A DNA stretch of 64,000 nt, from positions 1,612,001 through 1,676,000 of the forward strand of contig NZ_LT900021.1 in NCBI RefSeq assembly GCF_900198835.1. The letters are read 5' to 3'. A model generated the notes under the pieces. That model made no database searches. It was given only the letters and a program-made list of their open reading frames with translations, and had not been told where the DNA came from. The DNA comes from Thermococcus henrietii (GTDB lineage Archaea; Methanobacteriota_B; Thermococci; Thermococcales; Thermococcaceae). This document shows positions 56,813 to 61,771 of the stretch, piece by piece (position 1 is the stretch's first letter; each line of letters begins with the position of its first letter). The translations under genes and the position numbers were made by a program.

Positions 56813-56941
56813 ACGCCTCCCTTTAACTTTTACCGGGCAGTTAAATCTTTTTCGGGATTTTTCACACCAAGGTTCACCGCAAAGTATTTATCGGGGCCCA
56901 CTGAATAAGTTTTTACAAACAATGACGGGGTGTGTTAGAGC

Positions 56942-58258
56942 ATGCGAAAACTGTTCGGTTTGTTGTTGGTGGGCCTGATGGCCCTTAGCGTCGTGGCCAG
57001 CGGCTGTATAAGCGGAGGAGGAACTTCAACCCAGAGTCCAACAGCAACGAAAGTCCCGAATAAGATAAACATACTCTACACGTACACGGGCTCGTTCAGC
57101 GACCCCGCCAAAGGTAAACAGGCGGCACAGGCCCAGCTCCAGCAGGGAGCGTGGGTCATCTATCAGGTCGCGGGCGGTACTGGCTTGGGTGTCTTTGAGG
57201 CAGTTGGCGACTACCTTAAGGCCAACGGCAAGAAAATGGGACCCCCCTTTGCCATCGGTGTTGACTCAGCTCAGGACTGGATTAAGCCGGGAGTTATAAT
57301 CGCTAGCATGATGAAGCGCGTTGACGTTGGTGTTTACAACGCCGTCAAGGAGGCAGAGGAGAACCAGTTCCGCGGCGGCGTCGTCGAGCTCGGTCTCAAG
57401 GACGGGGGTGTTAAGCTCTCCACGATAGCAGACGTCAAGGCTATGTTCGACTCCCTCCCAGCCGATGTCAGGGCCAAAAAGCTGAAGGACCTTGGCTTCC
57501 AGAACGAGCAGCAGCTTTTGGAGTACCTTAACAAGACCCGCCAGCAGGTTCCGAGCTGGATATGGCAGGCCGTTGACCAGCTTCAGCAGGAGATAATAAG
57601 CGGCAAGATACTGGTTCCCAAGGCAACCCAGAAGAGCCAGATTGAACAGCTCAGGAAGGCCACCAGCTGGCAACAGATGGAGAAGCTTGGGGAGGAATGG
57701 GCAAAGGAGTCACCCAAGCCTGAGACTTACTTCAACAAGACCCTCAACGAGAGGCAGAACACCAAGAAGATAGCCATCGTCTTCGACGTCGGTGGCAGGG
57801 GTGACCTGAGCTTCAACGACATGGCCTACATGGGTGCCGAGAGGGCCGTTAAGGATTTCGGACTCCAGCTCACCCAGCTTCAGAGCAACAGCCCGAACGA
57901 CTACTACACCAACCTCCAGAGCCTCGCCAAGACCGGCCAGTATGACATCATAATCGCCGTCGGATTTATGATGACCGACGCCGTCAAGAAGGTCGCCCAG
58001 GAGTACCCGAAGCAGAGGTTTGTCCTAATCGACGGCTACGACCCCAACATGCCGCACAACGTCCAGATGGTCCTCTTCAAGGAGAACGAGGGTTCAGCCT
58101 TGGCTGGAGCGCTCGCCGCCCTCATAGCCCTCAACGACGGTAAGGACACCATAGGTATCGTCCTCGGTATGGAAATTCCGGTTCTCTACAAGTTCGAGGG
58201 CGGCTACCGCTTCGGTGCCTACTGGGCCCTCGACTACTACAAGAACCACAAGCAGTGA
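56942..58258 (+). CDS. BMP/PnrA-type nucleoside-binding lipoprotein, circularly permuted
   Basis: A 438-residue substrate-binding lipoprotein of the first gene in an ABC operon. A signal peptide ends in the lipobox VVASGC (Cys22), then a Thr/Ser linker. In PnrA/BMP proteins the part with DxGG..D.SFN comes first and the part with F.DP.KG...AGGTG.G second. Here residues 41-225 (ILYTYTGSFSDPAKGKQAA, YQVAGGTGLGVFEA, IGVDSAQD, GKILVP) are the usual second half, and residues 275-438 (KIAIVFDVGGRGDLSFNDMA, ENEGSALAGALAAL, GMEIPVLYKFEGGYRFGA) are the usual first half. The natural junction ...YYKNHKQ/NILYTY is split between the two termini. A linker (about 229-274) joins the old C- and N-ends. Both lobes look complete, so binding of a nucleoside is probably kept. 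Confidence 0.9.
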   Translation: MRKLFGLLLVGLMALSVVASGCISGGGTSTQSPTATKVPNKINILYTYTGSFSDPAKGKQAAQAQLQQGAWVIYQVAGGTGLGVFEAVGDYLKANGKKMGPPFAIGVDSAQDWIKPGVIIASMMKRVDVGVYNAVKEAEENQFRGGVVELGLKDGGVKLSTIADVKAMFDSLPADVRAKKLKDLGFQNEQQLLEYLNKTRQQVPSWIWQAVDQLQQEIISGKILVPKATQKSQIEQLRKATSWQQMEKLGEEWAKESPKPETYFNKTLNERQNTKKIAIVFDVGGRGDLSFNDMAYMGAERAVKDFGLQLTQLQSNSPNDYYTNLQSLAKTGQYDIIIAVGFMMTDAVKKVAQEYPKQRFVLIDGYDPNMPHNVQMVLFKENEGSALAGALAALIALNDGKDTIGIVLGMEIPVLYKFEGGYRFGAYWALDYYKNHKQ

Positions 58259-58300
58259 TTTCCTTCCCTTTGTTCTTCTTCCCTTTAGGAGGTGAAAGCG

Positions 58301-59836
58301 ATGGAAGAGAGGACTCCAGTGCTCGAGATGCGTGACATCGTGAAGGTTTACCCGGACGGCACAAAGGCTCTGAAGGGCGTCACGATTAAGGTCTACGAGG
58401 GTGAAATCCTCGGTCTCCTCGGCGAGAACGGTGCCGGAAAAACGACGCTGATGAAGGTTCTCTTCGGAATGCTCAAGCCGACGAAGGGCAAGATTTTTCT
58501 CAGGGGTAAAGAAGTCCGCTTCAAGAGCCCCGCCGATGCAATAGCGAACGGAATCGGAATGGTTCACCAGCACTTCACGCTCGTTGAGGTCTTCAACGCC
58601 CTCGAGAACATCATCCTCGGAATGGAGGGGCACGGACTGCTGTCCAAGATTGACGTCGAGAACGCGAGGAGGAAGCTCCAGAAGCTGATGGATGAGCTCA
58701 ACTTCCAGGTTCCCCTCGACGTCCCCGTCGAAAACCTCCCCGTCGGCGTCCAGCAGAGGATTGAAATTCTCAAGATGCTCTACCGCGACGTTGACATACT
58801 CATTCTCGACGAGCCGACCGCGGTTCTCACTCCGATTGAGGTTAAGGAGCTTTTCGCAGTTCTTAGGAAGCTCAAGGAGCAGGGAAAGACGATAATCTTC
58901 ATCAGCCACAAGCTCAACGAGGTCATGGAGATAACCGACCGCGTTACGGTCATAAGGAAAGGTGAGGTCGTCGGAACCGTCAAGACGAGCGAGGCAACGC
59001 CCCAGCTCCTCGCGAGGATGATGGTTGGCAGGGACGTCGTTCTCAGGATTGAGAAGCCCCCGAAGGAGCCTGGTGACGTCGTCTTCCGCGTCGAGGACCT
59101 ATGGGTGAAGGGAGACAGGGGCGAAGAAGCTGTTCGCGGGCTGACCTTCGAGGTCCGCGCTGGCGAGATATTCGGCATAGCCGGTGTTGAAGGCAACGGC
59201 CAGAGCGAGTTGATAGAAGCCATAGCTGGTCTGAGAAAAATCGAAAGGGGCAAGGTTTACCTCAAAGGAATCGACATCACAGGCAAGAAACCGAGGGAGC
59301 TCTACGACATGGGGGTGGCGCACATACCAGAGGACAGGACGCACATGGGTTTAATCCTCGAGATGACGGTGATGGAGAACTCAATTCTGGGAATGCACTG
59401 GAGGGAGGAGTTTTCCAGGGGACCCCTTATCGATTGGGGCAAGGTCGAGGAGCACGCAAAGAGACTGATAGAGGAGTTCGAGGTCAGCGCACCTGGAACG
59501 AAAGCCCCGGTAAAGAGCCTGAGCGGTGGAAACCAGCAGAAGCTGATAGTTGCGAGGGAGGTAAGCAAAAAGCCCGAGTTCATCATAGCGGCACAGCCAA
59601 CGCGTGGTGTTGACGTTGCCTCGACCGAGTACATCAGAAACTACCTCGTCAAACTGAGGAACGAGGACAAGGCCGTTCTGCTCGTCTCTGCCGACCTGGA
59701 TGAGGTTCTCCAGCTCAGCGACAGGATGGCGATAATGTACGAGGGCCAGTTCATGGGAATAGTCAAGCCCGACGAGGTTACCGAGGAGCAGATTGGACTC
59801 ATGATGGGAGGTGTTAAGGGTGAACCTCAAAAATGA
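58301..59836 (+). CDS. ABC transporter ATPase, double NBD, nucleoside/simple-sugar type
   Basis: A 511-residue protein with two nucleotide-binding domains. NBD1: LGENGAGKTTLMKVLFG, LPVGVQQRIEILKMLYRDVDILILDEPTAVLTP. NBD2: Walker A is the degenerate GVEGNGQSELIEAI usual for this family, with SLSGGNQQKLIVAREV and a Walker B whose Asp/Glu are replaced by FIIAAQPTRGVD, also family-typical. ATP hydrolysis thus rests mainly on one composite site. The ATG at 58301 follows AGGAGGTGAAAGCG. A T-rich stretch separates it from the lipoprotein gene. Confidence 0.94.
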   Translation: MEERTPVLEMRDIVKVYPDGTKALKGVTIKVYEGEILGLLGENGAGKTTLMKVLFGMLKPTKGKIFLRGKEVRFKSPADAIANGIGMVHQHFTLVEVFNALENIILGMEGHGLLSKIDVENARRKLQKLMDELNFQVPLDVPVENLPVGVQQRIEILKMLYRDVDILILDEPTAVLTPIEVKELFAVLRKLKEQGKTIIFISHKLNEVMEITDRVTVIRKGEVVGTVKTSEATPQLLARMMVGRDVVLRIEKPPKEPGDVVFRVEDLWVKGDRGEEAVRGLTFEVRAGEIFGIAGVEGNGQSELIEAIAGLRKIERGKVYLKGIDITGKKPRELYDMGVAHIPEDRTHMGLILEMTVMENSILGMHWREEFSRGPLIDWGKVEEHAKRLIEEFEVSAPGTKAPVKSLSGGNQQKLIVAREVSKKPEFIIAAQPTRGVDVASTEYIRNYLVKLRNEDKAVLLVSADLDEVLQLSDRMAIMYEGQFMGIVKPDEVTEEQIGLMMGGVKGEPQK

Positions 59837-60863
59837 GCTCAGAGGATACGCCAAACCCGTGGCCGAGAGCGTTTTGGCGATACTCATTGGAGCGTTCATA
59901 GGTGCCCTCGTCCTCTGGTTCAGTGGTTACGACGCGATTGCCGCGTACCGAGCCCTTCTATCGGGTTCCTTCGGTTCCCTCAGCAACTTTGCGGAGACCC
60001 TCAGCAAATCAACACCGCTCATTCTGACGGCGATAACCTTCGCTATAGGCGCGAGAACCGGGCTCTTCAACATCGGCGCCGAGGGAACCGTCTACTTCGG
60101 TGCCATAGCGGCCGTCGCGGTAACCCAGAGCGTACGGAATCCTTTGGCCGGAATACTAGCTGGAATCCTAGTCGGTGCGCTGTGGATGCTCCCCGCGGCG
60201 GTCCTCAAGGTGTACAGGGGCGTTCATGAAGTTATCTCCACGATAATGTTCAACTGGATTGCCTTCTTCTTGGCGAGCTGGCTCGCCCTCCAAGTCTTTG
60301 AGAACCCGATGAACCCCAACAGCACGCTGCCGATTCCACCGGGGGCAAGGCTACCCCTGCTCGTGAAGAACTCTACTCTCTCGCTGGCCTTCGTGATAGC
60401 GATAATCTCAGCAATCATTGTTTACGTGGTAATGTGGCACACCAAGCTCGGCTACGAACTCAGAACCAGTGGACAGAACCCGAGGGCGGCTGAATACGGT
60501 GGCACGAACCCTAAGGTGGCCATGCTCTGGTCCTTCGTCATCGGCGGAATGACTGCCGGACTCGCGGGTGCGCTCCAGGTCATGGGAATCCCGCCGAGCT
60601 ACTCCATCAGCCAGGGACTCGCGAACGTCTACGGCTACGGTTTCGACGGAATAGGTGTCTCCCTTGTCGGCAGGAACCACCCCCTCGGCATAATCTTCGC
60701 GGGGATACTCTTTGGAGCCCTCAACGCGGGGGCAACACAGATGCAGCAAACGGGCGTTCCCCTTGAGATGGTTAAGGTCATCGAGGGCATCATCATCGTG
60801 GCCGTCGCCGTGCCCGGACTCCTTGACCTGTTCACCAGAGCGTTCAGGAGGGGAAGTGCATGA
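59820..60863 (+). CDS. ABC transporter permease 1 (nucleoside type)
   Basis: A 347-residue membrane protein of the BPD_transp_2 family (RbsC/YufP-like), about ten hydrophobic helices. The signature ITFAIGARTGLFNIGAEGTVYFGAIAAV and the coupling-helix region GYELRTSGQNPRAAEYGGTNP are visible. It overlaps the ATPase gene end; GTG 59820 with GGAGGTGTTAAGG upstream is the likely start. With permease 2 it forms the heterodimeric channel. Confidence 0.9.
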   Translation: MNLKNELRGYAKPVAESVLAILIGAFIGALVLWFSGYDAIAAYRALLSGSFGSLSNFAETLSKSTPLILTAITFAIGARTGLFNIGAEGTVYFGAIAAVAVTQSVRNPLAGILAGILVGALWMLPAAVLKVYRGVHEVISTIMFNWIAFFLASWLALQVFENPMNPNSTLPIPPGARLPLLVKNSTLSLAFVIAIISAIIVYVVMWHTKLGYELRTSGQNPRAAEYGGTNPKVAMLWSFVIGGMTAGLAGALQVMGIPPSYSISQGLANVYGYGFDGIGVSLVGRNHPLGIIFAGILFGALNAGATQMQQTGVPLEMVKVIEGIIIVAVAVPGLLDLFTRAFRRGSA

Positions 60864-61771
60864 ACGAGACTATGGTAATCAGCCTCCTGCTCGGTTCCCT
60901 AGCGGCGATGGTTCCAATAGCACTTACGAGCATAGGTGCCGTGATAAGCGAAAGGGCCGGTGTCGTCAACATCGGCTACGAGGGAATACTGATGCTCTCG
61001 GCGTTTTTCGGGGCGATATTCGCTGAGCTAGCTCACAACGGATGGGTTGGTCTCCTCGGAGGCGCACTAACCGGCCTTATCATAGGGATAATCCACGGCG
61101 TAATCACCGTCTACCTCAAGGGCGACCACGTCATTCCGGGCATCGGTATAAACCTCATAGGCTACGGTGGCGTTGCATTTGGAATCCTAGCGTACTGGGG
61201 CACCGCAGGACAGCATCAAGTCCCTCAGAACGCCCAGATTAAGCCCCTCTGGATGGACGCCTTCGGAAACTCCCTCAGCCCTATGGTACCGATAACGATA
61301 GCGGTCGCGGTAATAGTCTGGTGGATGCTCTTCAAGACGCCGTTCGGGCTGAGAATTCGCGCCGTCGGAGAGAACCCAGAAGCAGCGGACGCTATTGGAA
61401 TAAACGTCGAGCTCTACCGCTTCACGGCGGTCCTCATAGCGAGTGCCTTGGCCGGCGTTGCCGGTGCCTACCTCAGCGTTGACTGGCTCGGAACCGTAAC
61501 GAAAACGATAGCGGCCGGAAGGGGTTTCATAGCCCTGGCGAACATGGTCTTCAGCGGCTGGAACCCGATAGTGGCCCTCGGTGGAGCGTTCCTCTTCGGA
61601 TTCTTCGACAACTTCGCCATCTACATACAGAACAACCCCTGGCTCGCGGGAACGATACCCTGGCAGTTCATAGCGACCCTGCCGTACGTCGTGACCCTCA
61701 TAGTGGTCGCGGGAATAATAGGAAGGGCAAGGCCACCCAAGTGGGACGGCAGGCCCTACAAGCGCGAGTGA
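60860..61771 (+). CDS. ABC transporter permease 2 (nucleoside type)
   Basis: A 303-residue permease (YufQ-like), about nine helices. Signature: PIALTSIGAVISERAGVVNIGYEGILMLSAFFGAI, and coupling helix FGLRIRAVGENPEAADAIGINV. It overlaps permease 1 by 4 bases. The gene order lipoprotein, ATPase, permease, permease matches bacterial nucleoside importers. An oligo-T run (CATTTTTTC) at the stop ends the operon, tail to tail with the metal-binding protein gene. Confidence 0.9.
   Translation: MNETMVISLLLGSLAAMVPIALTSIGAVISERAGVVNIGYEGILMLSAFFGAIFAELAHNGWVGLLGGALTGLIIGIIHGVITVYLKGDHVIPGIGINLIGYGGVAFGILAYWGTAGQHQVPQNAQIKPLWMDAFGNSLSPMVPITIAVAVIVWWMLFKTPFGLRIRAVGENPEAADAIGINVELYRFTAVLIASALAGVAGAYLSVDWLGTVTKTIAAGRGFIALANMVFSGWNPIVALGGAFLFGFFDNFAIYIQNNPWLAGTIPWQFIATLPYVVTLIVVAGIIGRARPPKWDGRPYKRE

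Follow-up and report, generated by a model that had tools for sequence, protein, structure and literature searches.

The closest known relatives of the protein analysed here are the BMP/PnrA nucleoside-binding lipoproteins represented by the PDB entries 2fqw, 6y9u, 7x0r and 4pev, which are Treponema PnrA/TmpC, S. pneumoniae PnrA, C. thermocellum Lbp and an Aeropyrum pernix protein, respectively. Both halves of these proteins are homologous to those of a lipoprotein of Thermococcus henrietii encoded in the window (the whole stretch of 64,000 nucleotides that was analysed), and their invariant residues are kept in it. The two systems also share the lipoprotein signal, an ATPase and two BPD_transp_2 permeases. 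However, in the T. henrietii protein the halves are swapped, an extra linker is present and the lipid tether is predicted to be attached at lobe 2. A second known system is the canonical BMP operon of the Thermococcaceae. It occupies the same chromosomal site with the same gene order, and the halves of its binding protein (SBP) are 65-77% identical to those of the permuted one, but this SBP is collinear with the family and the ATPase and permeases belong to diverged lineages. For instance, permease 1 is about 57% identical between the canonical and permuted groups and 73-88% identical inside the permuted group.

Natural circular permutations have mostly been inferred between distant proteins, in which intermediates and genetic context have been erased. 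In the literature searched, which covered few subscription papers, no permuted BMP/PnrA protein is reported, and no naturally permuted ABC binding protein was found other than TpMglB-2 (Tp0684) of Treponema. The latter (PDB 5JX2) is a type I ABC binding lipoprotein whose chain has been circularly permuted in nature with ligand binding retained; it binds glucose and is classed as "Type Ic / Cluster Bc". Its break is located within the N lobe, at the fourth hinge crossing, and the moved part is only 13% identical to an unpermuted homologue (PMC4990184). The initial annotation of the T. henrietii locus had called the natural permutation of an ABC binding protein rare; for type I binding proteins TpMglB-2 is a published precedent (PMC4990184).

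Sequence and predicted secondary structure indicate that the T. henrietii protein also has a circularly permuted type I fold. However, its break falls between a lobe-2 helix and the next lobe-2 strand and not in the N lobe, and its significant PDB sequence matches are of the BMP/PnrA type only, with no MglB-type homology. TpMglB-2 belongs to a sugar family, not to BMP, and no canonical form at the same locus in the same genus has been reported for it. The BMP permutation is recent enough for the halves to have remained 65-77% identical, and both forms occur side by side at a single locus within one genus. What is new here is a permuted BMP cassette of one origin that is scattered on the species tree and exchanged at a single locus. 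It offers a rare chance to study a natural permutation beside the normal form at one chromosomal site. With halves this similar, and with both forms heading operons of one type at the same locus of sister species, allele swaps would allow a direct test of what a permutation costs, what it brings and how it came about.

Order of the halves in the BMP lipoprotein

The ORF 56942-58258 (+ strand, as are all features given below) encodes a protein of 438 amino acids with a lipoprotein signal peptide and the lipobox VASGC, whose cysteine is Cys22 (56942..57007). A TATA-like box, TATTTAT, is present upstream of the operon at 56885..56891; its role is presumed, and TATTTAT/TATATAT is conserved at this place when the upstream DNA of permuted loci is aligned with that of canonical ones. 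Residues 23-40 (57008..57061) form a variable, low-complexity tether that evolves fast and is predicted with low pLDDT. The segment that is C-terminal in canonical proteins follows (residues 41-257, 57062..57712). It comprises the lobe-2 strands onward and the canonical C-terminal tail, and corresponds to 4pev 219-412, to Bmp profile positions ~151-288 and to the same region of canonical orthologues. After a new linker (residues 258-274, 57713..57763), which canonical homologues lack, the chain continues with the segment that is N-terminal in canonical proteins (residues 275-438 and the stop codon, 57764..58258; Bmp 4-149, 4pev 39-211), which terminates in the lobe-2 helix.

The Pfam profile PF02608 (Bmp) matches the protein with 174.9 bits (cut-off 24.1) in two stretches, the profile positions 4-149 corresponding to residues 278-426. 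When whole genomes were scanned with the same profile, positions 151-277 were found in the upstream DNA and 4-149 in the downstream DNA. In 21 genomes the inverted order (profile ~150-288 ahead of 4-149) is seen at the DNA level. When the halves were aligned separately to a PnrA-type structure, both matched 4pev in swapped order, the chain positions 39-211 aligning with residues 261-428 and 219-412 with residues 41-238; the pattern recurs when the alignment profile is compared with other BMP structures. Every rotation of the mature protein was also compared with one canonical Thermococcaceae homologue by local alignment. The score increased from 800 without rotation (216 aligned residues) to 1376 on rotation; in a rotated alignment, 381 residues were aligned with 69% identity and the predicted secondary structure matched at 96% of them.

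Therefore, although both halves match the family profile and the lipoprotein is linked to an ATPase and two permeases, the N-to-C order is not collinear with that of the family, and the protein is a permuted variant of BMP/PnrA and not an ordinary member. In a profile search it shows up only as two incomplete domains whose order is reversed. The initial annotation, which had proposed a natural in-frame permutation with the sorting signal kept, is borne out by the Pfam match, the 4pev alignment and the rotation scan alike, and the ORF, the frame, Cys22 and the motifs it quoted are all located where it had placed them.

The three transporter genes that it had seen downstream code for an ATPase with two ABC domains (58301..59836; two Pfam ABC_tran matches, best NCBIfam name ABC_ATP_B6, below cut-off) and two BPD_transp_2 permeases by Pfam, permease 1 (59811..60863) and permease 2 (60860..61771). 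The ATPase start in the ORF list is the GTG at 58292; since this codon is inside the ribosome-binding site GGAGGTG, translation more likely begins at the ATG at 58301. No second BMP gene was found in a scan of the whole T. henrietii genome.

Cut site, linker and predicted fold

The canonical sequence across the cut is ..GYRFGVKWAEDYYKQKTGKDV/KIDVLYQYTG.., and the chain is opened in ..DYYKQKTGKDV/KIDVLYQYTG.., in the loop that joins two lobe-2 elements. In permuted proteins KINILYTYTG comes right after the lipobox tether and the chain ends in ..GYRFGAYWALDYYKNHKQ. According to the predicted elements, with lobes assigned from the known type I topology, the opened loop connects a long helix of the second lobe to the strand that follows it there, so that the new ends are placed inside lobe 2. 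A break between the lobes is thereby ruled out, both by the predicted elements and by the rotated alignment. It had been suggested in the initial annotation that lobe order is free in this fold, but the termini lie inside lobe 2 and the lobe order as such is unchanged.

The longest canonical C-termini extend to ..WQEMEELAKKWEKSS, and the permuted chain continues from residue ~257 with PKPETYFNKTLNERQNT (258-274) and then KKIAIVFDVGGRGDLSFND. In the alignment to canonical orthologues, residues 229-257 correspond to the C-terminal tail that these proteins normally have; thus only ~258-274 are genuinely new, and the linker of about 45 residues (~229-274) assumed at first shrinks to ~17 residues. 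Its length is constant across the 21 permuted proteins. The linker is not hydrophobic, which rules out that it is the remnant of a second signal peptide.

AlphaFold2, provided with an alignment of permuted proteins and of canonical halves entered separately, predicted a confident single fold for the permuted protein (pLDDT 92.1, pTM 0.91). Foldseek searches with the canonical model returned 442 PDB chains at E <= 0.001, 4pev being aligned across 393 columns, whereas the permuted model returned 18 chains and aligned with 4pev across 168 columns only, as would be expected when a reordered chain is aligned sequentially. The only PDB entry well aligned over the whole permuted model is 5er3, a solute-binding protein of Rhodopirellula baltica (416 columns, TM 0.62 by target), which is absent from the best 50 matches of the canonical model. 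For this reason 5er3 is a candidate for a further type I binding protein whose permutation has gone unnoticed, although it is only 10% identical to the permuted protein and has no BMP sequence match.

Selection acts on the permuted protein. The dN/dS values range from 0.01 to 0.17 in both halves and are higher in the linker, so the protein is under purifying selection. Of 80 positions that are invariant in 32 canonical relatives, 77 are retained in all 21 permuted proteins, and the invariant position lost at the cut in most of them is the glycine of the opened loop. That the protein is in decay, or has been repurposed and has lost its role as the binding protein, is very improbable: neither the dN/dS values nor the retained positions fit this view, and the gene, which is the sole BMP gene of T. 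henrietii, heads an intact transporter operon. We consider it very probable that the locus encodes a circularly permuted binding lipoprotein of the BMP/PnrA type that is functional and serves an ABC importer, its ligand being presumably a nucleoside.

The permuted protein would fold into the ordinary two-lobed trap, bind its ligand between the lobes like its canonical relatives and then pass it to the permeases, with the difference that the lipid tether would depart from lobe 2 and not from lobe 1. This arrangement raises the question of whether a tether on the other lobe alters delivery to the permease. A nucleoside-like ligand is presumed by analogy with the BMP/PnrA family; the best NCBIfam names, which are below cut-off, point to a B6 transporter and were counted against such a ligand.

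Distribution, single origin and horizontal spread

Among the 61 Thermococcus genomes searched, 57 carry a BMP gene, and 22 of the latter (about four in ten of the species examined) have the permuted form, which is complete in 21 and cut by a contig end in one. The permuted proteins of other genomes are 75-95% identical to the 438-residue protein. At this locus the remaining Thermococcus genomes are canonical, as are all other genera of the Thermococcaceae. No permuted BMP was found in these five other genera, and genome scans of the phylum gave none beyond Thermococcus. The search in other Thermococcus genomes that the initial annotation had recommended answers its concern about an assembly error. 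A mistake in the assembly or annotation of a single genome can practically be dismissed as the cause of the swap: the junctions are identical in 21 genomes, five of which are single contigs while the others include MAGs from separate projects, and the linker does not change in length. One MAG that is 53% complete (G006) contains both a permuted and a canonical operon (L079, L169). Either the bin is mixed or the genome carries both operons; it was handled as a possible mixture and did not count as an intermediate.

Both forms share the same site, with SurE, FtsY and u56k (a divergent 150-residue gene) on the left flank and ZnuA on the right. In the SBP tree the permuted form requires 1 change, with a branch support of 48%, which is low. 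In each of the trees of the ATPase, permease 1 and permease 2 the cassette genes form one group (1 change, 99-100% support; 100% for permease 1). Although the SBP branch is poorly supported, the trees of the linked genes strongly back a single origin, and the data show that the permuted gene arose once.

The species tree, built with rpoA1 and rpoB (5238 columns, 60 genomes), tells a different story from that of the cassette. On it the permuted form needs 10 changes, at least nine of which are forced by well-supported branches, and an AU test rejected the grouping of the permuted genomes into one clade (p 4e-75). The trees of the adjoining u56k and ZnuA genes require 10 changes each. Vertical inheritance with losses is ruled out by the species tree, the AU test and the flanking genes. 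The 9-10 changes on the rpo tree could also be accounted for without gene transfer by several independent permutations, but this is extremely improbable, since all permuted genes have one break and the same conserved linker, descend from a common ancestor together with the linked ATPase and permeases, and have neighbouring genes that do not follow the cassette. A single origin combined with a scattered occurrence implies instead repeated horizontal replacement of the operon: the four genes, from the SBP to permease 2, are transferred together as a cassette that takes the place of the resident operon, and several unrelated Thermococcus lineages have it at the chromosomal site where others have the canonical operon.

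Permease 1 of the permuted cassette groups, on a long stem, with canonical permeases of other genera (99% support), a grouping that is not seen in the ATPase tree. It may be that not all of the cassette shares one history.

With respect to the route of origin, the likeliest one is an in-frame tandem duplication of the mature part, after which the first N-half, just behind the lipobox, and the last C-half would have been lost. Permuted proteins usually arise by duplication and trimming. None of the 92 BMP-bearing genomes showed a tandem-duplicate intermediate, and after the permuted stop codon there is only a short pyrimidine-rich spacer and a ribosome-binding site, with no traces of the cut-off C-half. 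The missing intermediate would also suit an origin by fission and reverse-order fusion, in which two separately encoded halves were joined, or by a single recombination. We regard these routes as rather unlikely, though worth keeping in mind: split halves have not been seen either, and duplication with trimming explains why both old ends survive through the linker.

Cassette borders and a kinase fusion

The borders of the cassette were compared in five pairs of sister genomes with unlike forms. Genome G081, for instance, has the permuted form and its sister G076 the canonical one: u56k is 95.5% identical and ZnuA 83% between them, while the ATPase, permease 1 and permease 2 are 77, 66 and 70% identical. 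Against the distant permuted genome G035 the pattern is reversed, with 60% for u56k, 90, 86 and 90% for the three transporter genes, and 64% for ZnuA. On the left, the promoter and the signal peptide match those of the canonical sister as far as the Cys codon or thereabouts, beyond which the sequences diverge, clearly so in G081/G076 and G005/G015; the match is partial in G036/G003, and G025/G001 and G011/G021 gave no resolved left border. On the right, each of the five pairs has its border in the final ~60-100 nt of permease 2.

The conserved DNA at both ends, namely that of the signal peptide and the 3' end of permease 2, would allow divergent alleles to recombine homologously and spread, and an incoming mature protein would thereby be fitted to the export signal of the host. 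The exchange of a membrane-importer cassette whose border lies at the signal peptide leaves the host free to retain the export signal it already has. The signal-peptide regions of many Thermococcus lipoproteins are similar enough to match one another, and the 17-nt lipobox word GTGGCCAGCGGCTGTAT occurs 4 times in the T. henrietii genome (0 for the reversed control). It is possible that signal-peptide and lipobox DNA provides recombination points for lipoprotein shuffling in general.

No permuted SBP was found with permeases of the canonical lineage in the 21 genomes, despite at least nine changes on the species tree. A tentative explanation, which we hold to be less likely than not, is that the permuted SBP and its own permeases constitute a functionally insulated allele, in which matched pairs work best, and which repeatedly displaces the canonical one in unrelated Thermococcus by some advantage; the locus would then carry a horizontally spread topology polymorphism.

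G081 also possesses, away from any transporter, a gene for a 1042-residue fusion (L059:5340-8468; G081 C1:58339-61467) that consists of a BMP domain in canonical order, a likely transmembrane segment, DUF7662 and a Ser/Thr protein kinase. A role as an archaeal nucleoside-sensing receptor kinase is possible. Its C-half begins with ~80 residues that are close to the permuted lineage, the DNA being 86.5% identical over 274 nt to the permuted gene of the same genome, whereas the rest is close to the canonical lineage; this mixed ancestry suggests gene conversion.
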